From NCBI GenBank assembly GCA_945889325.1, contig CAMDBH010000009.1, forward strand, positions 1 to 64,000: a DNA stretch of 64,000 nt, in the 5' to 3' direction. A program made the translations under genes and the position numbers. This DNA comes from Klebsiella pneumoniae. Its GTDB lineage: Bacteria > Myxococcota_A > UBA9042. Under the pieces are notes generated by a model that made no database searches, was not told the origin of the DNA, and saw only the letters and a program-made list of their open reading frames with translations. This document shows, in pieces, positions 16,066-61,996 of the stretch (the stretch's first letter is position 1; every line of letters begins with the position of its first letter).

Positions 16066-16264
16066 GCTCAGAGGCTGTGAAATATCCATTTCACAGCTGC
16101 TGAGCGGGGTCAGGTCTTAGCAGTTTCTGCGTGCCCGTTCCGTAAGTTATTGATGTTATAGAGGCTAAACAATTGAATCCGAGCAGGCGGCTGGTCGATC
16201 GGCAGAAATTGCTAACACCAGACCCCATTTGAGAGCGGTGAAAAGGTTTTTCCACACGCTCTCA
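16066..16264. mobile_element. hairpin element copy A (MITE-like, reverse orientation)
   Basis: A 199 bp element lying between two convergent genes. It starts with long hairpin H2 (16066-16105), then GGGGTCAGGTCTTAGC at 16106 and its imperfect inverted partner ending CACCAGACCCC at 16226, an AT-richer core between them, and a bulged hairpin H1 (16230-16264). Its reverse complement matches copy D at 54588-54785 almost base for base. H1 overlaps the stop codon of the minus-strand gene at 16262. No coding capacity. The inner inverted ends suggest a non-autonomous mobile element; a REP/BIME-like role is an alternative. Confidence 0.75.
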
Positions 16265-16825
16265 GGCCAGATCGCCAAATCGTTTGGCGCGGTATTCCGC
16301 CGACACGCGCACGCCGTTGATGAGACAAGCGATATGCACGTCGCGCTTGTCGTACAGGCCTTCAAGCGCGTCGAAAATCGCATCGCCCTGCTCGTCGGTG
16401 ATTTCCGTGATCGCCTCAACATCCTCATTGATCTTCTTTACTTCGCGCTGCAAATCGCCGTAAAGCCGGTGTTCCGCCTCATCCCAGTTGTAGATGACCA
16501 ATTGCGCCAAAAGACCGTTGCCTTTTTCCAAAATCTCACGCCGCAGCACTTTTTCCAAATGGGTGCCGTCAATTTTTTGCGGACGATAGCCCTTAAAATG
16601 ACGATAGAAAACCGCGCGATCGAGGCGTTCCAGCTCCGGCAGAAAGGTGCGCAACGGCACCCGCCGCGTCAACCGCGCAAATTGGCGCTGTGACAGCAGC
16701 CTGAGCGCCGCAATGGCCTCTTTGTCGTCTGCCGCCGAATCGCCCGCGTCGGTCGCTGCGGCAGCTTGGCTTGCTGCGGTGGGTTCAACGAGCGAATCAT
16801 CTGATAATGCGGTAACTTGCGACAT
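16262..16825 (-). CDS. hypothetical protein, 187 aa
   Basis: ATG 16825 is preferred over the upstream TTG 16846 because AGCAGG lies about 7 bases before it. The first ~45 residues are Ala/Ser/Asp-rich; the rest is charged and mainly helical, with conserved-looking blocks (LPELERLDRAVFYRHFKGYR, LVIYNWDEAEHRLYGDLQRE). No signal peptide or membrane segment, so it is cytoplasmic. I do not recognise the family. The stop codon lies inside the H1 hairpin of element A. Confidence 0.55.
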   Translation of the reverse strand: MSQVTALSDDSLVEPTAASQAAAATDAGDSAADDKEAIAALRLLSQRQFARLTRRVPLRTFLPELERLDRAVFYRHFKGYRPQKIDGTHLEKVLRREILEKGNGLLAQLVIYNWDEAEHRLYGDLQREVKKINEDVEAITEITDEQGDAIFDALEGLYDKRDVHIACLINGVRVSAEYRAKRFGDLA

Positions 16826-16952
16826 TTCTAAACCTGCTGGGCTCAAACTCGGCGTAAAATCGCCACCACGTTGGCAACGACAAGGGCCAAGAGTTTAAGG
16901 GTGTTTGCCAAAACTGGCAAGGAGCAAAATGGACTTCGCGGCACTGCGGGCT

Positions 16953-18826: not shown

Positions 18827-21409
18827 CTAATTACAGCCACTTGTCGCTGAATACTGACACGGAAACCACTGACACGACGCCGAACAAAATTGCCACTTCA
18901 GCGTGCCACAACACTGATAATTCTTGCCCGCATTATAAACGCAAGCATTGCCCGGCTTTAAGCCGCAACCACCCCAAGCGCAATTCGCGCCGCAAACGCG
19001 TTGTTGACACCCATCGGCGCAGTTGCCATCGGTTGCGCCCGCCGCGCACACGCCCTGACTGCCACACGCACCGTAGGCGCCGTACGCACCCCACTGGCAA
19101 CTGTTGCTGCAGGTGCGCGTGTGCGACTGGGTGCCGCAATTGCCGCAACCCTGTGATTGAGATTCAGTTTTCCCCGGCGCGCACACGCCTTGACTGCCGC
19201 AAACGCCAAACGCCGACCAAGCGCCCCATTGGCAACTGTTGTTGCAAGTGCGCGATCGGCTTTGGGTGCCGCAATTACCACACGCCTGTGAATTGTTTTC
19301 GATCTGGCCCGGTGCGCACGGGCCCGATGCACCTTTGATGCACTGTCCGTTGTTGCAAACCGCTATGCCGCACGCGTCGTTTAACGCGCTGCAATCCTTA
19401 AGACTGCCCGTGCACTGGCCATTTTGGCAATGATCGTTGTCTGTGCAGCCGTTGCCGTCGTTGCAGCCGCCGCCGTTGTTGATCGGCGTGGCGACACATT
19501 GGCCACCCTGGCAAGTGCCACCGCCACATACAGAATTTAGGCCGCTGCAGTCCTTTTGCGTGCCTTTGCAGGCGCCGCCGGCGCAGGAATCGCCAACCGT
19601 GCACGCGTCGCCATCGTCGCAGGCACCTTGTTTTGCTTGCGATTGGCATTGGCCATTTTGGCAGATACCTGCGTTGCACTTGCCGTCCAAATACGTGCAA
19701 TCCTTAGGCGTTCCTTTGCAAAACCCCGCCACGCAACTGTCGTTGCCGGTGCATGCATCGCCATCGTCGCAAAGACCCATGTCTTTGGCTTTGGCGCTGC
19801 ATTGGCCATTGACGCAAATACCGATGCCGCAAACGCTATTGTTGGCCGAGCAATCCATCGCCTTGCCTTTGCACACGCCGAAATTGCATTTGTCCAACAC
19901 CGTGCAAGCATCGCCATCGTCGCAAACTAGGCCATTTTGCAAAACAAATGCGCTTTTGCTTTGGACAGGATTGCAGACCTTGCACGGGTCGCTCGGGTCG
20001 ATCGCGCCGGCTTGCACGCACATGCCGCCGATGCTGCAAATCCCGCTGTCGAGCGAATGTTTGCAAGTGCCCGCCGCGTCACAGAGATCGCTTGTGCAAC
20101 TGTCGCCGTCGTCCGGACAGGGCTTGCCTGCCTCAAAAATGTGCGCGCACTTGCCGATTTGGCACACATCGGTGGTGCAGGCGTTGCCGTCATCGGTGCA
20201 CGCTTCGTTGTCCTTGCTCGTGTGAATGCAGCCCTTTGCGATGTCACAACTATCCGTTGTACAAGGGTTTTTGTCATCGCAGGTCATGACATCGGCGCCA
20301 ATGCACTTGCCGTCGATGCATTTGTCCACCTGCGTACAAGCGTTGCTGTCGTCGCAAGAACCGTCGGGGGGCGTTACCTGTTTGCACGATCCGTCCGTGT
20401 TACAAGTCCCGATTGTGCATGGATTTCCGTCTTCGCACAGGTTGTCGTCCGTCTTGCCGTTGCAGTCGTCGTCAATCCCGTTGCACGTTTCGGGTTTGGC
20501 CACTTTGGCGTCGCAAGTCGGTTCGCCGCTGTCACAACCCGACGAGACGCCGGCGCAAGTGCCAAATTCGTTTTTGTTATAGCAGACTTCGCCCTTGCCA
20601 ACGCCTTCATCCGTTTGGCCGTTGCAATCGTCGTCTTTGCCGTTGCAGATCTCCAGCGCGGGCACCGGTGCGTCGCAATCGCTCAGGCCCGTGGCACCAC
20701 ACTTGCGCAACCCATTGCAAGTACCAATCATATTCTTGTGGCTGCACGCCGTGCTCAAGCCTTTGCTGACCGCAGCAGGGCTGCATTTGCATTGCCCCGA
20801 TATCGGCGAACATTGGTAGGCCGCTTTGCCGTTGTCGGGGTTGATCGCGCTCACACATTCGTAATCATCGGGGCAATTGGGTTTAGCGGGGTTGCACGCC
20901 GTGCCGCAAAAGCTGCCCAACGGCCCCTGAGCGATGCACAAATTGTCGATACTGCCATTTTCATTGCAGTCGGCGCCCTTGCCGCATGGATCGCAGAGGT
21001 GCGTAAGCGACGGTAAACAGACAAATTGCGTGTCACCGCTGCCGGCAATTTGTCCGCAAATCCAACCGGGATCGCACGTTTCTATGCACTTTTTTGTGCA
21101 GACCTTGCCATTGGGGCCGTTGATGCAGTAGCCGCTGTCGCAATCGAGGTTTTGGGTGCAAGTAGCACCATATTCGCCGGGGGTTGCATCTGGGACCGCG
21201 GGCTCTGGCACATCCAACTCTGTGTCACTCAAGGTAGTTTTTGTATCAGGCTTTTTGCCGCTGTCCAAAATTTTGACGTCGAAGTTGACACCGGCGTCAA
21301 CACCGCTGGCGCTGCCGCCGCCGCCAGCTGCGGGATCTGCGCCACAGGCGGTTGCCAGCCACGCAGCAGACGTCGCCAGAAAAACCAAACAAGCGCGGCG
21401 AGTTATCAT
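18827..21409 (-). CDS. large Cys-rich surface lipoprotein with Dictyostelium-type and TSP1-like repeats
   Basis: The start is set at ATG 21409, which gives the lipoprotein signal VFLATSAAWLATAC; the frame is open slightly further up. The 860-residue protein has an Asp/Ala-rich spacer, two MopE-like motifs (NGKDDDCNGQTDE, NGIDDDCNGKTDD), then about nine CxDGxxCTxxxxC repeats of the Dictyostelium slime-mould class. It ends with two ~43-residue repeats of the form CGNCGTQSRTRTC...CQWGAWSAFGVC that look like thrombospondin type 1 modules, and a final Cys-rich tail. Such proteins are exported, disulfide-bonded and surface exposed; a binding or adhesion role is likely but not shown. Confidence 0.8.
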   Translation of the reverse strand: MITRRACLVFLATSAAWLATACGADPAAGGGGSASGVDAGVNFDVKILDSGKKPDTKTTLSDTELDVPEPAVPDATPGEYGATCTQNLDCDSGYCINGPNGKVCTKKCIETCDPGWICGQIAGSGDTQFVCLPSLTHLCDPCGKGADCNENGSIDNLCIAQGPLGSFCGTACNPAKPNCPDDYECVSAINPDNGKAAYQCSPISGQCKCSPAAVSKGLSTACSHKNMIGTCNGLRKCGATGLSDCDAPVPALEICNGKDDDCNGQTDEGVGKGEVCYNKNEFGTCAGVSSGCDSGEPTCDAKVAKPETCNGIDDDCNGKTDDNLCEDGNPCTIGTCNTDGSCKQVTPPDGSCDDSNACTQVDKCIDGKCIGADVMTCDDKNPCTTDSCDIAKGCIHTSKDNEACTDDGNACTTDVCQIGKCAHIFEAGKPCPDDGDSCTSDLCDAAGTCKHSLDSGICSIGGMCVQAGAIDPSDPCKVCNPVQSKSAFVLQNGLVCDDGDACTVLDKCNFGVCKGKAMDCSANNSVCGIGICVNGQCSAKAKDMGLCDDGDACTGNDSCVAGFCKGTPKDCTYLDGKCNAGICQNGQCQSQAKQGACDDGDACTVGDSCAGGACKGTQKDCSGLNSVCGGGTCQGGQCVATPINNGGGCNDGNGCTDNDHCQNGQCTGSLKDCSALNDACGIAVCNNGQCIKGASGPCAPGQIENNSQACGNCGTQSRSRTCNNSCQWGAWSAFGVCGSQGVCAPGKTESQSQGCGNCGTQSHTRTCSNSCQWGAYGAYGACGSQGVCAAGATDGNCADGCQQRVCGANCAWGGCGLKPGNACVYNAGKNYQCCGTLKWQFCSASCQWFPCQYSATSGCN

Positions 21410-21529: not shown

Positions 21530-21670
21530 GGGCGCAAACCCAAACGACAGCGCCGAATTATTTTTAATCCGCCTTCTTTCAAGCACTTACATCGGTTGGC
21601 GCTGGGTCAAAACCGGCCGCTCGTGCAAAACTTTCATCCCAGCGCCCGGATGCCCACCCGCAGCGCAATC
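21530..21670. repeat. duplicated flank F, copy 1
   Basis: A 141 bp segment upstream of the Cys-rich lipoprotein gene that matches 28836-28976 without gaps, with about 18 mismatches counted by eye. Both copies lie upstream of a minus-strand lipoprotein gene and both run directly into a hairpin element. No reading frame is evident. It marks one end of a duplicated segment and might carry promoter sequence shared by the two genes. Confidence 0.75.
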
Positions 21671-21870
21671 TGAGAGCGTGTGAAAAAACCTTTTCACCGC
21701 TCTCAAATAGGGTCTGGTGTTAGCAATTTCTGCCGATCGACCAGCCGCTCCCTCGGATTCATTTCATCATCCTAAATAATATCAATAATTTATAGAACGA
21801 GCACGCAGAAACCGCTAAGACCTGCCCGCAGCTCAGCAGCTGTGAAATGGATACTTCACAGCTGCTGAGC
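21671..21870. mobile_element. hairpin element copy B (MITE-like, forward orientation)
   Basis: A 200 bp copy in the same orientation as copy D. H1 is at 21671-21705, the inner end GGTCTGGTGTTAGC begins near 21711, and H2 at 21831-21870 has arms GCTCAGCAGCTGTGAA and their exact complement. The core and right inner end have drifted from copies A and D (for example CTGCCCGC for CTGACCCC). It abuts the transposase remnant at 21871 and flank F on the other side. Confidence 0.75.
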
Positions 21871-24207: not shown

Positions 24208-24855
24208 GCAGGACCTCGGATCGCCCCGGAATTTCGGCGCGGCGCAATGCGGTAAAACGAAAGAATTATAGACAGGTGCACAACGGGTCGCCAAACACTT
24301 CACGCGGTTGCGTGCGGACATCTCGGCGCGCATCCGCCCGACCGAGTTTGGCGCGCGCGCCAAATCTGCCGGGCGCCGTCCAAGAATTTCTTGCACAACC
24401 ACCGAGAATAGCTTGACATTCCGCTTCGCGATCGTGGACCACCACTTCGAGGCGCCGACGAAATTTCGCCGACTGGCTCCTTCATTGTGCAGACGGTGCA
24501 AGCCAAGGTCAATCCTGTTTTTTTTTTGGAAATTTGCGCCACAGACAGCGTGTTTACGACCTGCCAGGATTCACCACAGATCTTCGGGCGATTTGTCGAT
24601 TTGGGATGCAAATCAAGGAACAAGGTGCTGCTCACAGGCTGTGAAATGGATATTTCACAGCCTGTGAGCGCGATGCACCCGTCGACGGTGCTGATTCAAC
24701 AAATTTGGGAACGTGTCCTTGCGCTGGAGGTGCAGCCGAGCGGTTAGTCGTTGCTGATTTACGCCGAGTTTCGGACCGTTTTTTCGTCCGTTGCGCCGCG
24801 GCATTGTTTTGTCGAGCGCTTTTGCGCTTTCCTCTTCAGTATTTGAGGTACATCC
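24208..24855. other. divergent intergenic region
   Basis: 648 bp between the cytochrome lipoprotein (minus) and the YtkA-like gene (plus). It holds a T9 run near 24510-24520, the isolated hairpin H2 at 24630-24669 and only short frames without recognisable products. Promoters for both flanking genes must lie here, but I cannot assign boxes. Confidence 0.5.
24630..24669. repeat. isolated H2 hairpin (element fragment E)
   Basis: A perfect inverted repeat with arms GCTCACAGGCTGTGAAAT and ATTTCACAGCCTGTGAGC around GGAT. It matches the H2 hairpin of elements A, B and D but has no H1, no inner inverted ends and no core. Compared with copy D both arms carry the same paired change (ACAGG with CCTGT instead of AGAGG with CCTCT). 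Confidence 0.8.
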
Positions 24856-28835: not shown

Positions 28836-28976
28836 GGGCGCAAACCCAAACGAGAGCGCCAAATTATTCTTAAGCCGCTTTCTTCCAAGCACTTACATCG
28901 GTCGACACCAGGTCAAAACCTGCTGCGGGTGCAAAACTTTCATCCTAGCGCCCAGATGCCCACGCGCAGCGCAATC
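28836..28976. repeat. duplicated flank F, copy 2
   Basis: A 141 bp segment aligning gaplessly with 21530-21670 (about 87% identity by eye). It lies 57 bp upstream of a lipoprotein start and runs directly into truncated hairpin element C. Confidence 0.75.
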
Positions 28977-29054
28977 TGAGAGTGTGTGAAAAAACCCTTT
29001 CACCGCTCTCAAATGGGGTCTGGTGTTAGCAATTTCTGCTGATCGACCAGCCGC
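28977..29054. mobile_element. hairpin element copy C (truncated, left part only)
   Basis: It holds H1 (28977-29011), the inner end GGGGTCTGGTGTTAGC and the conserved stretch to GACCAGCCGC, after which similarity to copies A, B and D stops at 29054. The core, right inner end and H2 are missing. The transposase remnant begins immediately at the breakpoint. Confidence 0.7.
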
Positions 29055-49831: not shown

Positions 49832-52288
49832 TCAACATCCTGGCTGTCCGATGCACGCCGGATCTTGGCAATCGACCTTGCCATTGCCGTCGTCGTCGAG
49901 CGCATTGCCGCATTCTTCGGCCGAAAAGTCGAGTTGAATTTTCAAATTGTCGACAAACCAGCCTCTGCCGCTGTTGCCTTGGTTGTTCGGCGCCTGCAAT
50001 GAGAATTCCACGCGAAACGATTTGCCACTGACTTTGGGCACTTCGACGTCAATGGCCCGCCAAATCCCTTGGCAGGGTCCGCCGCAATTGTTGCTCGACT
50101 TGCTGAGCAGGAACTGATCGAGAATGATCTTAGTGCCTTCCTCGCGCAAGACCACCAGTGGCACATCCGTTTTCGCCTCGCCAAAACCTGTGCCACCGGG
50201 CTTGGGCCCGTCGAGCTCGTAAAACGTATCAAAACGGATGCGCGGCACCCCTGCCTTACTCGACGCATCGATCAGCGCCGAGGTCGCCGTCACATTCGGC
50301 GTGCCCAAACACAAGTTGCCGCCCAATGGAAAATCGCAATAATTCAGGCCGTTGTTGTAGTTAAGCGTGCACTGGTATTTTTGCTGCTGCGGCAGAATCG
50401 GCGTCTGATCTACCGCCCACAACACTTGATATCCAAACGGTTTTGGCAAATTCCAGCCGTTGCCGCCGTCGACGCATTCAAAACTATCGCTGAGCAGCGT
50501 GCAATTGCCCTTGGTCGGCGCACACAGTCCATTTTTACATGCACTTGCGTCGGTGCAGGCGATACCGTCGTCACACAGGATGCCGTCGCCTACCTTGGCG
50601 GAACTGCACTTGCCTTGTGCGGCGCTGCAAGCATCGGCGGTGCAAAAGTTGCCGTCGTCGCAGGTCGATTTGTTGCCCGCGGTGCAAAATCCTTTGATAT
50701 CGCAGATATCGCCGCTCGTGCAGAAGTTGCCGTCGTCGCAAGGGCCCGCTTTGGCGTTGTGGGTGCAAGCGCCGGTTTTGCTGTCGCAGCCGTCGGCCGT
50801 GCACGCGTTGCCGTCGTCACAACCTTTTAAATCTATTGGTATTCCGCCGCAAACTTGGCCTTTGCAAGCGTCGCCGTCCGTACACGGATTGCCATCGTCG
50901 CATTTGACGCTGACGCCGGGCGGTATGGCCAAGTAGGTGCAGTTGCCCTGACTGCAACTATCCGTGGTGCAAGCGTTCTTGTCGTCACACGCCTTGAGAT
51001 CGCCTTTGCAGTTGCCGGTCTTGCACGCGTCGTTGGACGTGCAAGCGTCGCCATCATCGCACCCGCCAAATTTGGCCGTCCAGTTGCAATTTCCCGTCTT
51101 TGGCTCGCAAACATCATTGGTGCAGAACTTGCCGTCGTCGCAGTCCAGTGCCAGCCCCCCTTTGCACACGCCGCCGCCGCAAACTTCTTTCGCCGTGCAG
51201 GTGTTACCGTCATCGCACGTCTTGCCGTCGTCTACGGCCACCGCGACGCAGCCCGCGAGCGGTTCACAACCTTCTTTGGTACAGACATTGCCGTCATCGC
51301 ACGGTGTTTTGACTGGCGTAAATAGGCAGCCTCCGCTGTTGGCTTCACACCCATCGATGGTGCAAGCGTTGCCGTCGTCGCAGTTTTTCGCCAGCCCCTG
51401 CGCGCACTTACCAGCGGAGCAGGTTTCAGCGACAGAACACGCGTCGTCGTCGTCGCAAGGTGTACCGTCGGCCACGGCGGCGGTGACGCAAACAAATGCT
51501 TGGCATATCCATATTTGGCACGGCAATGGCGGCTTTTTTGCACAGTCGGAAGCCGCAATGCATTCGGTCAACGGTGCATCGCCCAGCGGCGCGTCGGGCG
51601 CCGATATATCGCTAGAATTGCTAGCATCATCTTCGGATTCAGCGTCCACGCTCGCCGAGGCGTCTGGCGGCGAATCGACCTCACTGCCGGCGAGCGAGTC
51701 CGCGGCGTCCTGTGGCCCGCTGACGGCGTCCGGGGCGGCCAAAATATCGCCTATTTTTAGGTCCTTGTCGGGCACGCCATCAGCAGCAGCGTCTGGTGCC
51801 TGCTCGTCAGGCGGGTCCAGCAAACCATCCGCGGAGTCGAGACCCGCATCGGGCGGGTCCGGAAGTCCATCCGGTTTGCCGTCCTTACCGTCAGGTGGGT
51901 CAGGAAATCCGTCTGGCTTTTCGTCTTTTCCGTCGGGGGGTTCGAGCAAACCGTCGGGCTTCTGACCTTTGCCGTCGTGCGGATCGGCAAAACCATCCGG
52001 CTTGTCCGGTTTGCCATCCGGGGGATCTAGAAAACCGTCCGGTTTTCTAGGTATTATATCGGTTTGCGCCCCATCGCCATCTGGTCCTGCAGCGTCGGCG
52101 TCCGCTTGCTGCCCGCCCAAATCAATCTGTTGGACCTGGGTGTCGGTGGTCGCAGTAACATCATTGACTTGGGCCACATCCTCGGCGTCGCCGTTGACGG
52201 GTTCAACTTGCGGATCTGCGCCACAGGCGATCGCTACCCAACTGAGCAAGCTTACAAGTGAAAATCTGTTCACTCTGCCCTGCCACAT
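49832..52288 (-). CDS. Cys-rich surface lipoprotein with 14-residue acidic repeats and twelve Dictyostelium-type repeats
   Basis: ATG 52288 or GTG 52273 can start it; both give SLVSLLSWVAIACG as lipoprotein signal. Residues 82-165 are six consecutive 14-residue units of the form KPDGFxDPPDGKxx. An acidic spacer follows, then about twelve CDDGNxCTxxxC units (metal- or disulfide-stabilised, Dictyostelium slime-mould class). The last ~200 residues form a separate beta-rich domain (WNLPKPFGYQVLWAVDQTP, RIRFDTFYELDGPKPGG) ending in CGNALDDDGNGKVDCQDPAC, a MopE-like motif. It is exported and likely stretches away from the cell on the repeat stalk. Operon with the PHM-like gene downstream. Confidence 0.8.
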   Translation of the reverse strand: MWQGRVNRFSLVSLLSWVAIACGADPQVEPVNGDAEDVAQVNDVTATTDTQVQQIDLGGQQADADAAGPDGDGAQTDIIPRKPDGFLDPPDGKPDKPDGFADPHDGKGQKPDGLLEPPDGKDEKPDGFPDPPDGKDGKPDGLPDPPDAGLDSADGLLDPPDEQAPDAAADGVPDKDLKIGDILAAPDAVSGPQDAADSLAGSEVDSPPDASASVDAESEDDASNSSDISAPDAPLGDAPLTECIAASDCAKKPPLPCQIWICQAFVCVTAAVADGTPCDDDDACSVAETCSAGKCAQGLAKNCDDGNACTIDGCEANSGGCLFTPVKTPCDDGNVCTKEGCEPLAGCVAVAVDDGKTCDDGNTCTAKEVCGGGVCKGGLALDCDDGKFCTNDVCEPKTGNCNWTAKFGGCDDGDACTSNDACKTGNCKGDLKACDDKNACTTDSCSQGNCTYLAIPPGVSVKCDDGNPCTDGDACKGQVCGGIPIDLKGCDDGNACTADGCDSKTGACTHNAKAGPCDDGNFCTSGDICDIKGFCTAGNKSTCDDGNFCTADACSAAQGKCSSAKVGDGILCDDGIACTDASACKNGLCAPTKGNCTLLSDSFECVDGGNGWNLPKPFGYQVLWAVDQTPILPQQQKYQCTLNYNNGLNYCDFPLGGNLCLGTPNVTATSALIDASSKAGVPRIRFDTFYELDGPKPGGTGFGEAKTDVPLVVLREEGTKIILDQFLLSKSSNNCGGPCQGIWRAIDVEVPKVSGKSFRVEFSLQAPNNQGNSGRGWFVDNLKIQLDFSAEECGNALDDDGNGKVDCQDPACIGQPGC
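51794..52045 (-). repeat. in-frame 42 bp repeat, six copies (KPDG units)
   Basis: 252 bp divide exactly into six 42 bp units coding KPDGFLDPPDGKPD, KPDGFADPHDGKGQ, KPDGLLEPPDGKDE, KPDGFPDPPDGKDG, KPDGLPDPPDAGLD and SADGLLDPPDEQAP. The DNA units differ at silent and replacement sites, so the array is not brand new. Each unit offers several Asp side chains separated by Gly, compatible with a calcium-binding or extended stalk. Confidence 0.85.
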
Positions 52289-54587: not shown

Positions 54588-54785
54588 TGAGAGCGTGTGA
54601 AAAACCGTTTCACCGCTCTCAAATGGGGTCTGGTGTTAGCAATTTCTGCTGATCGACCAGCCGCCTGCTCGGATTCAATTGTTTAGCCTCTATAACATCA
54701 TTAACTTACGGAACGGGCACGCAGAAACTGCTAAGACCTGACCCCGCTCAGAGGCTGTGAAATGGATATTTCACAGCCTCTGAGC
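54588..54785. mobile_element. hairpin element copy D (MITE-like, reference copy)
   Basis: A 198 bp element. H1 (54588-54621) has arms TGAGAGCG-T-GTGAAA and TTTCACCGCTCTCA with one bulged T. Inner imperfect inverted ends of 25 bp lie at 54625-54649 (GGGGTCTGGTGTTAGC start) and 54721-54745 (ACCTGACCCC end), flanking a 71 bp core. H2 (54746-54785) has perfect arms GCTCAGAGGCTGTGAAAT and ATTTCACAGCCTCTGAGC around GG. It lies between convergent genes, as copy A does. No reading frame of note. Confidence 0.8.
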
Positions 54786-57522: not shown

Positions 57523-60500
57523 ATGTCCCACAACAATTTCAGCGGTGCCACAGGCCGACGTGCGGGCCATTTCGGTTGCAGCGTACTGTTCAGATCCGTG
57601 TTATCGTTGTCAATTGGCGCGTGCGGCACGGTTGTTACCGTGCCCAATGAAGAGGACGCCAACTCCGTTTTTTTCGACAGCACCGGCACCAAACCCAAAA
57701 CCGACACCAAAGCCAACGCCGACGATCTGGACAGCGGCAAGGCGCAGTTTGAGGATGTTGGTGGCGTGTGTGAATTTGCGGCTGAGCCGCTCAAGGGCGA
57801 GGCCGGTTCGCCCTGCGACGTCGCCGAGGACTGTAACTCCGCGCTTTGTATTGAAACGGCCAATGGCAAGATCTGCAGCAAGCAATGCACGGGGTGTTGC
57901 CCGTCTGGCTTCAAGTGCCAGGAACTCAGCGGCGGCGAAGCGGTTTTTGCTTGTTTGCCGCGGTGGTTGAGTCTGTGCCGCCCCTGTGCGGTGGACACGG
58001 ATTGTGTAAGTAAAACGGACGATTCGCTGTGCATCAGCTACGGCGACGCGGGGCGTTTTTGCGGCGGCATTTGCAAAACCGACAGCGAGTGCCCTGAAAA
58101 CTACTTGTGCAAGGACGCCAAGGGCAATCCAGGATCTGGAAAACAATGCGTTTTGCAGACGGGCGAGTGCAAGTGCACCAGCAAGGATGTTGAAAAGGGA
58201 GCGTCGACTTCTTGCTCGATCACCAATGCGTCGGGCACCTGCCCCGGCACCCGCAAATGCGGCAAGGACGGCTTGACCGTGTGCGACGCTGTCGCTGCAA
58301 CGGGTGAAGTTTGCGACGGTTTGGACAACAATTGCAATGGCCAGACCGATGAAGCTGGGGCGGGCGGCTGCGTCGCCTATTGGTTGGACACCGACAAGGA
58401 TGGCTTTGGCTTGAGTGCCGCCTTTGGTGGCAAGCAGCAATGCTTGTGCAAGTCTATGGATTTGTATACGTCTTTGACGCCAACCGATTGCAACGACGAA
58501 GAAAAAGCCATCAATCCATTGGCGCCCGAATGGTGTAACGACATCGACGACAACTGCAACAGCAAAACCGATGAAGATTGCGACGCCGACAGCGACGGCT
58601 ACTGCGCTGAAAGTGCTGTGATCGTTGGCAAACCGGCGATTTGCAAAAAGGGCGGCAACGACTGCGACGACACCAAGGTGGGGCTGAACCCCGGCGCCAA
58701 AGATCTGTGCGGCGACAACATCGATCAGGATTGCGACGGCAAGACCGACAATGGTGAAGATACACCGGGTTGCACGGAGTTTTTCTTCGACGGCGACAAA
58801 GACGGCTTTGGCTCGTTTGACAGCAAATGCCTATGCGCCGCGGGCGGTTTGTTCACGGCGGTCCAGAGCGGCGATTGCAACGACAGCAGCGCGGATATCA
58901 ACCCAGCCAAAGTCGAAGTGTGCGGCAACGGGGTGGACGACAACTGCAATGGCGCCCAAGACGAGCAGGACGGCGGCCAATGCGTTGATTTTTACGTAGA
59001 TAACGACAGCGACGGCTACGGCGCCGGCAAACCAGCGTGCCTGTGTGCGCCCAATGCACAGTACACGACCAAGAAGGGTGGCGACTGCGACGACACCGAG
59101 CCCAAATTGAACCCAGCGATGGTCGAAGTCTGTGATGGCATTGATAATAATTGCAGCGGCGCCATCGATGAGGAAAATGCTTTTGGCTGCGTCAAGTACT
59201 ACGCCGACGTCGACAAAGACACGTTTGGCAACCCAAATGACGTGAAATGCCTTTGCGCTCCGGATGTTCTGTACAATGCGCTGGGCGGCGGCGACTGCGA
59301 CGATCTGCAAGCGCTGGCCAAACCGGGGATGCCTGAGATTTGCAATAATTTTGACGACAACTGCGATGGACAGGTCGACGAAAATTCCGCCAAAGGCTGC
59401 GTAGATTACTGGGTCGACGCCGACGATGACGGCTACGGCGACGTGGACAAAACCGTTTGCTCCTGTTTGCCCGTCAAAGACTATCCCTGCAAAATCGGGG
59501 GCGATTGCAATGACAAAGACGACAAGATTCATCCCACCGCGGAAGAAAAATGCAACGGTGTGGACGACAATTGCAACACTTTGATCGACGAAAAAGACGC
59601 CGCGGGTTGTAAGGCCTTCTTGCTCGACGAAGACGAAGACGGCTACGGCGTCGACAATAAAATTGCGTGTTTGTGCGGACCGAGCAAGCCGTTTTCGACC
59701 CAAAAGGGCGGCGATTGCAACGATTCAAATCCATCGATTCATCCTGACGCTGCCGAGACTTGCGACGCGGTTGACAACAATTGCAATAACGTCATCGATG
59801 AAAACGGCGCATTGCTGTGCATTTCCTACTTTGCCGACTTGGACAAGGACGGATTTGGCTCCAATATCGTGCCCGCGCAATGTCAGTGCAAGGCGGATGG
59901 CTTCTTTACCTCTACTATTTCAGGCGATTGCAACGACGGCGATCCCGGCACCTTCCCCAAAGCCCAGGAATTTTGCGACGGCAAGGATACGGATTGCGAT
60001 GGCGTGATTGATCCCGTGGGGGCAAAAGGCTGTAAAACCTATTATTTGGATGTCGACTCTGACGCTTACGGAGACTCTTCAACCTCGCAATGTGCCTGCG
60101 CCGGTGCGGGTCAGTTTACCGCTCTGGTCGGCGGTGACTGCAACGACAAGAACGATCAGGTCAAGCCCAACGCCCCGGAAATCTGCAACGGCGTTGATGA
60201 CAATTGCAACGGCGTTATCGATGTCGACTCACCTTTGGCCAAAATGTACTTCAAAGACGGCGACAAAGACGGCTACGGCGCAGGTGCGGGCACGCCACTT
60301 TGCCAAGCGGGCAACGGCTATGTCACTACGTTGGATGGCGATTGCAATGACAACAACGTCGCGGTTTACCCAACGGCCAAGGAGGTTTGCAACGCCATCG
60401 ATGACAATTGCAATGGCCAAGTCGATGAAGGTCCAGGCGGCGCTTTATGCCCAGGCGTGAACAACGGCACGCCTACTTGCAAGGCCGGCGCGTGCGGCAC

Positions 60501-61846: not shown

Positions 61847-61996
61847 GTTAGGACCGCTTCGCAGTCGCTGGGACGGCCTGAAGGAGGCGATGCCCTGCGC
61901 AGCAGGGAGTTAGGACCGCTTCGCAGTCGCTGGGACGGCCTGAAGGAGGCGATGCCCTGCGCAGCAGGGAGTTGGGACCGCTTCGCAGTCGCTGGG
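61847..61996. repeat. 62 bp direct repeat, 2.4 copies
   Basis: The units at 61847-61908 and 61909-61970 are identical, and a third starts at 61971 (GTTGGG for GTTAGG) and stops after 26 bases. Each contains CGCTTCGCAGTCGCTGGG and CCTGCGCAGCAGGGA, the latter a small hairpin. Located just downstream of the convergent minus-strand gene's stop. Identity implies recent duplication. Confidence 0.9.

Follow-up and report, generated by a model that had tools for sequence, protein, structure and literature searches.

The hairpin at positions 24630-24669 (plus strand) of the 64,000-nucleotide stretch of DNA analysed here (the window) raises the question of how the two arms of a repeated hairpin, here called H2, can differ between copies and still match each other. 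This solo copy reads ACAGG/CCTGT and its arms are fully paired; it has a minus-strand gene to its left and a plus-strand gene to its right, and does not lie at a stop codon. The window contains three further H2 hairpins, reading AGAGG/CCTCT at 54746-54785 (plus strand, copy D), AGCAG/CTGCT at 21831-21870 (plus strand, copy B, with an A.C mismatch adjoining the loop) and AGCAG/CCTCT at 16066-16105 (minus strand, copy A, with a mismatch at stem positions 6-7). These four readings had been given in a preliminary description of the window, and the re-read sequences agree with them. The four hairpins are far from chance: their DNA folding z-scores were -11.2 (24630 copy), -5.8 (A), -8.0 (B) and -10.1 (D), and the pattern GTGAAA-N2..12-TTTCAC occurs 79 times in the 3.47-Mb genome compared to 4 times for a reversed-pattern control. 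The pattern GAGCGTGTGAAAAA..TTTCAC gave 11 matches in a species-level genome collection and 1 in viral contigs, scattered over unrelated organisms and taken as chance. The hairpin at 24630-24669 is probably the stand-alone right-end hairpin of a non-autonomous REP/REPIN-like repeat, in which the different H2 versions would have arisen mainly by template switching and the fold would have been selected over the long term.

Genome searches showed that H2 terminates, on the right, a dispersed ~199-bp element comprising a hairpin H1, a long middle stem P and the hairpin H2. The copies were collected by sequence search of the genome, an incomplete, metagenome-type assembly (84%), which yielded about 25 full and 20 partial or solo copies in a census that may miss a few. 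Full copies begin with TGAGAGCGTGTGAAA or a close variant in H1, with a single exception reading TCAG, and terminate in TTTCACAGCCTCTGAG or a variant in H2; the outer termini are conserved and the inner arms of both hairpins are variable. Element A is a full copy of the alpha subfamily (16067-16264, minus strand, 198 bp), in which H1 makes up the first 35 nt (16230-16264) and H2 the last 38 nt (16067-16104), with the P stem between them; it was predicted to fold into these three helices with a z-score of -8.3 as DNA and -8.1 as RNA. Elements B (21671-21869, plus strand, H1 at 21671-21705) and D (54588-54784, plus strand, H1 from 54588) are also full alpha copies, and the truncated element C (28977-29054, plus strand) retains only H1 and the left half of the P stem. 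Left parts of B and C are included in a duplicated 219-bp segment (21530-21748 and 28836-29054, 90% identity) that takes along ~140 bp of flank. The alpha, beta and gamma subfamilies follow a common H1-P-H2 plan, and a fourth subfamily, epsilon (loci L032 and L029), has a different middle and a fold z-score of -15.4. Roughly in their middle, alpha and gamma elements carry an IHF-like motif, ATCAATAACTTA (fitting WATCAANNNNTTR), e.g. at 16130-16160.

Solo hairpins measure 37-40 bp. Several solo H2 copies retain 1-6 nt of the element interior, which weakens the idea that they are independent insertions, and four hybrid solos (L026, L034, L076 and the second hairpin of L028) join the left arm of H1 to the right arm of H2 and look like deletions between GTGAAA or TTTCAC direct repeats. 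When compared to Rfam 15 with gathering and permissive thresholds (a match being a score above gathering or E < 0.01), the window gave no match, and element A and 12 relative loci gave nothing below E = 0.3. An intrinsic terminator was discarded on reading the listed copies, where a T run after H2 is not consistent.

A DNA similarity search of 89 relatives returned 0 copies. Covariance models, R1 built from the window elements and R2 from the epsilon-like elements, found the same architecture in 13 of the 36 genomes searched, all belonging to one bacterial family and representing 7 genera; G014 held 71 matches, G017 61, G010 53 (which were not read one by one) and G016 34. The models gave 0 matches in 14 outgroup genomes of the same class and none in several sister genomes. 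The elements of the relatives start with TGAG or TAGG, end with CTGAG or CTAG, and contain a GC stem as well as a stem-loop, the loop of which (GAATTCACTTC) shows high conservation. When 37 of these elements were aligned by structure, changes on both sides were found in 54 of the 59 base pairs, with 430 both-side-change cells compared to 121 in shuffled alignments. The covariation score was 0.534, compared to 0.175 +/- 0.008 for shuffled alignments and at most 0.10 with slid partner columns; the alignment was fitted to the structure and the numbers are therefore inflated, but the slid control is still far lower. G.U pairs outnumbered A.C pairs (83 vs 39, with two conserved wobbles left out and the cells not being independent), which indicates that the stop-codon-bearing strand is the folding strand. 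The strong covariation of the whole element across the family thus suggests that selection maintains the fold over longer times.

A tentative alternative is that the repeats form a previously undescribed superfamily, so far confined to one bacterial family, which carries either a conserved core stem-loop (..GAAACTGC-N-GAATTCACTTC-N-GCAGTTCTTG..) or interchangeable cargo between two hairpins with stop-codon (TGA/TAG) outer ends and lands exactly at gene ends. Such elements would be mobile, have dedicated stop-codon targeting and a fold conserved at the RNA or ssDNA level, and would not be REPs.

Within the genome, variation in H2 is concentrated at stem positions 6-7. The preliminary description held that the two arms of H2 are always paired and change together between flanks that stay fixed, and its view does not extend beyond the four loci: 9 of the 31 ungapped H2 copies are perfect and 18 are unpaired at positions 6 and/or 7, with pair 6-33 unpaired in 7 of 19 distinct rows and pair 7-32 in 8 of 19. 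Copy A, regarded there as an intermediate, has in AGCAG/CCTCT the commonest alpha state and not a rare one (A, L014, L017, L020 and L027 as well as the solos L018, L022, L024 and L025), and the GTGAAA/TTTCAC flanks give way to GGTTGTG/CACAACC in gamma and to AGAGCC/GGCTCT in L029 and L032. Nor did both arms change together in the window copies; one arm was changed to match an unchanged one. In D, two adjacent bases of the 5' arm were changed and are the exact complement of the other arm, in B and L031 the same was found for two adjacent bases of the 3' arm, and the solo L033 has a double repair that is also in the 3' arm. As these repairs comprise two adjacent bases of the same arm and a one-repair intermediate is absent from the alpha copies, the recent H2 changes in this genome look like one-arm templated copying, as judged from the copies themselves.

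A tree was constructed from the rest of the element, i.e. with H2 removed, and placed D, B and L031 among imperfect copies, with forks that are mostly weakly supported. In simulations using the interior branch lengths, three full repairs in nine copies were obtained in 0 of 60,000 runs, and when the rate was raised fivefold to match the observed change count, the probability was 6.7e-5. Independent substitutions do not explain the double repairs of D, B and L031 (p<1e-4), each of which is a multi-base change in one arm to the exact complement of the other, as expected of a template switch. Covariation was also scored for H2 alone, as the preliminary description had proposed, and the excess is real (0.091 vs 0.041 +/- 0.009 shuffled), but the rows are related copies, the excess stems from a handful of events and many cells are unpaired. 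Where that description had offered selection for structure or the copying of one arm from the other as alternatives, both appear to hold on different time scales, the recent changes pointing to copying and the family-wide covariation to a fold that is kept.

The proposed mechanism is quasipalindrome template switching, in which an imperfect H2 hairpin would undergo arm-to-arm templated repair during replication. One arm would be rewritten from the other in a single step, giving the differing H2 versions, and in the longer term selection would keep the fold and lead to the pervasive compensatory change seen in the related elements of the family. Template switching has been shown to homogenise the arms of inverted repeats (PMC8604942) and can maintain hairpins (PMC8794818). 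The H2 changes resemble this process in that one imperfect arm is rewritten from the other through adjacent multi-base changes, with the difference that they are deduced here from paralogous copies and not from dated lineages. Template switching predicts two-base repairs in one arm without an intermediate, while selection for pairing favours repairs but not two at once, and we infer that template switching is the probable cause of the one-arm repairs. The one-mismatch state AGAAG/CCTCT of the beta subfamily speaks against a sole role for it, indicating that stepwise change also occurs.

The beta state also fits a purely selective explanation, in which mismatches are disfavoured and second-site compensatory point mutations become fixed with no special copying. 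The 54 of 59 covarying pairs across the family and the preference for G.U over A.C are in line with it as well. A mismatch is, however, present in most H2 copies of this genome, so selection against it must be weak; furthermore, the alpha repairs skip the one-repair state, and either the 5' or the 3' arm is repaired depending on the copy while the other arm is unchanged. Selection as the only process is therefore unlikely.

Repaired arms could also result from ectopic gene conversion or recombination between copies, inverted ones included, by which arms would be swapped to give AGAGG/CCTCT and AGCAG/CTGCT. This is a point against template switching: numerous copies are nearly identical and occur in either orientation, hybrid solos exist, and an exchange with an inverted copy would be expected to yield the two perfect types as its reciprocal products. 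On the other hand, D retains the alpha loop (TGGATA) and alpha flanks, which requires an exchanged tract shorter than the arm, and deletion between direct repeats (GTGAAA or TTTCAC) accounts for the hybrid solos. We consider such exchange improbable as the main source of the repairs and retain template switching as the preferred reading.

The position of the elements relative to genes was also analysed. In about half of the copies, the upstream gene has its natural stop codon in the first TGA of the element, e.g. in element A, where the upstream open frame (16262-16894, minus strand) terminates with the TGA at 16262-16264 that forms the first three bases of the element. The coding frame ends on the first TGA in 22 copies and enters the element in another register in 1 (L046), giving p = 5e-10 against an expectation of 1/3; the gene caller behind the frame scores was a simple one, based on codon usage and trained on the window, which makes individual calls approximate. 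Several of the upstream proteins extend to the C-terminal end of the respective family profile (MoeB 385/387, PcrA 721/725, CoaE 180/180, PrxQ 143/148), showing that these are natural stop codons and not truncations. Stop codons were found at 22 of 43 left ends compared to 6 of 28 (about 21%) non-coding TGAG sites in the window (binomial p = 1.7e-5; Fisher test with this small control 0.014). Part of this placement is explained by selection against insertion within genes, and an enrichment beyond such selection is suggestive, not proven. In the relatives, stop-codon placement recurs in G001 (6 of 7 read copies having a stop-like head), G013 and some copies of G016. The TAGG-type elements of G014 and G017 show it only weakly, which counts against the preferred reading.

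Starting at stop codons, being co-directional with the upstream gene and being strongly structured, the element could instead have a host RNA function, at the 3' end of the upstream gene's transcript, in its stability or in translation termination, and not be a mobile repeat. The excess of G.U over A.C on the transcribed strand agrees with this, and E. coli REPs located <=15 nt from a stop codon have been reported to affect translation (PMC12306157). The copies nevertheless follow unrelated genes, half of them are not at stop codons, tandem insertions are found (L009, L028), and the subfamilies are lineage-specific and burst-like, with 71 matches in G014 and none in several sister genomes. A host function in place of mobility is accordingly hard to credit, and the element is further treated as a mobile REP/REPIN-like repeat.

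The element begins with TGAG and ends with CTGAG on the same strand, comparison of the flanks of about 20 full copies gave no target duplication besides TGA, and the tandem copies L009 and L028 have one TGAG in common. The base preceding the left TGA is free and the G following the right TGA is nearly invariant. The same-strand TGAG at both ends resembles the situation in those Y1/HUH elements whose insertion site is 3' of a fixed tetranucleotide, and a Y1/HUH-type transposase most likely recognises the ends in the form of folded single-stranded DNA; the repeat would thus be mobilised by Y1 enzymes. A transposase gene was not found between these ends, a further point against the preferred reading. 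The sole Y1 gene found in the genome (PF01797, RAYT-like, L060:1480-1914, contig C28) was rejected as mobiliser since its flanking palindrome differs (CCAGTCAAGAAGTCCC/GGGACTTCTTGACC), and the DDE_Tnp_1 genes found in the genome were rejected as they are not flanked by these ends. Among 30 Y1 loci fetched from relatives, none is bounded by TGAG/TAGG hairpins. The palindromes of the C28 gene (CCAGTCAAGAAGTCCC...GGGACTTCTTGACCGGTAGCGGGG) recur beside the epsilon element in L029 and represent another REP family, unrelated to the first.

In the alpha, beta and gamma subfamilies, the P stem (GGGGTCAGGT..) has a match in the terminal repeats (GAGGGTCAGGTATTAACC) that flank a Y1 gene of the relative G003, and the elements therefore look composite, two TGAG hairpins enclosing a terminal-repeat unit of the Y1 type. 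In G003, a 310-aa Y1 transposase is encoded directly between inverted GAGGGTCAGGTATTAACC repeats (L223:1415-2398), with its TAA stop inside the repeat. Y1 genes flanked by terminal repeats are known as TIRYT families, which have a GGGGWSAS motif (PMC3733652); the P stem resembles these in its match to Y1-flanking repeats, and the window elements differ in that the repeat pair sits inside the H1/H2 hairpin pair.

When compared to known systems, the element works like the REP/REPIN type. As in REP/RAYT systems, BIMEs and REPINs, its hairpins are short, extragenic and present in many copies, either single or paired with a spacer, and they are lineage-specific and near gene 3' ends; palindromes of 20-40 nt in many extragenic copies, as used to define REPs, were found. 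Compensatory changes of the arms have also been reported for such systems (PMC2817692), including REPINs (PMC3116915). The differences are that the two TGAG motifs are direct and not inverted, that the element is 135-200 bp long and contains a structured, conserved domain in its interior, and that a RAYT with these hairpins on its flanks was found neither in the genome, whose own Y1 gene has another palindrome, nor at the 30 Y1 loci of relatives. The ends of GTAG REPs often supply a TAG stop codon (PMC3733652). Membership in that group was discarded on account of the missing cognate RAYT and the wrong head, which is TGAG or CTCAG (TAGG in other genera) and lies inside the stem and not beside it. 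With the IS200/IS605 (Y1/HUH) elements, the repeat has in common the hairpins at both ends, subterminal in those elements, the strand asymmetry, an identical cleavage-like motif on the same strand at both ends, and the absence of a target duplication besides a fixed tetranucleotide. It differs from them in that its hairpins start at the very ends and that a tnpA copy with these ends was not found. The least likely explanation is a MITE mobilised by a DDE transposase, with the imperfect terminal inverted repeats GAGCGTGTGAAA/GAGGCTGTGAAA that were indeed found, a target duplication TGA standing direct at both ends (IS5-like, YTNAR) and hairpins as a by-product of the paired repeats, as the free base before the left TGA and the near-invariant G after the right TGA are unexpected for a symmetric target, the DDE_Tnp_1 genes found in the genome lack these ends, and each end forms its own hairpin with arms that covary in relatives. 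The TGA is invariant, and a variable duplication was not observed.

The repeat provides a natural series of one hairpin, with >30 copies per genome and hundreds across the family, in which imperfect, repaired and hybrid states occur together. This series makes it testable what share of apparent compensatory evolution comes from selection and what share from the one-step copying of an arm, which is known to confound the discovery of RNAs by covariation. In addition, the repeat represents a kind of structured element that Rfam lacks and whose first bases tend to coincide with a stop codon, a placement relevant to the question of how small mobile repeats keep from damaging their host.

Some other features were noticed in the genome. 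A MITE-like unit with ends TTAGGGCCTGTC/T...AACAATAA is located beside an IS5-like transposase fragment in L038 (downstream of 1612) and in L087 (~527-700). Three separate arrays of short coding repeats, rich in Cys and Asp (NGVDDNCN-like), were found in the window at 19388-20357, 50541-51383 and 58306-60430 and resemble metal-binding repeat proteins. Lastly, the window contains a perfect 62-bp tandem duplication, with two identical copies, at 61847-61970.
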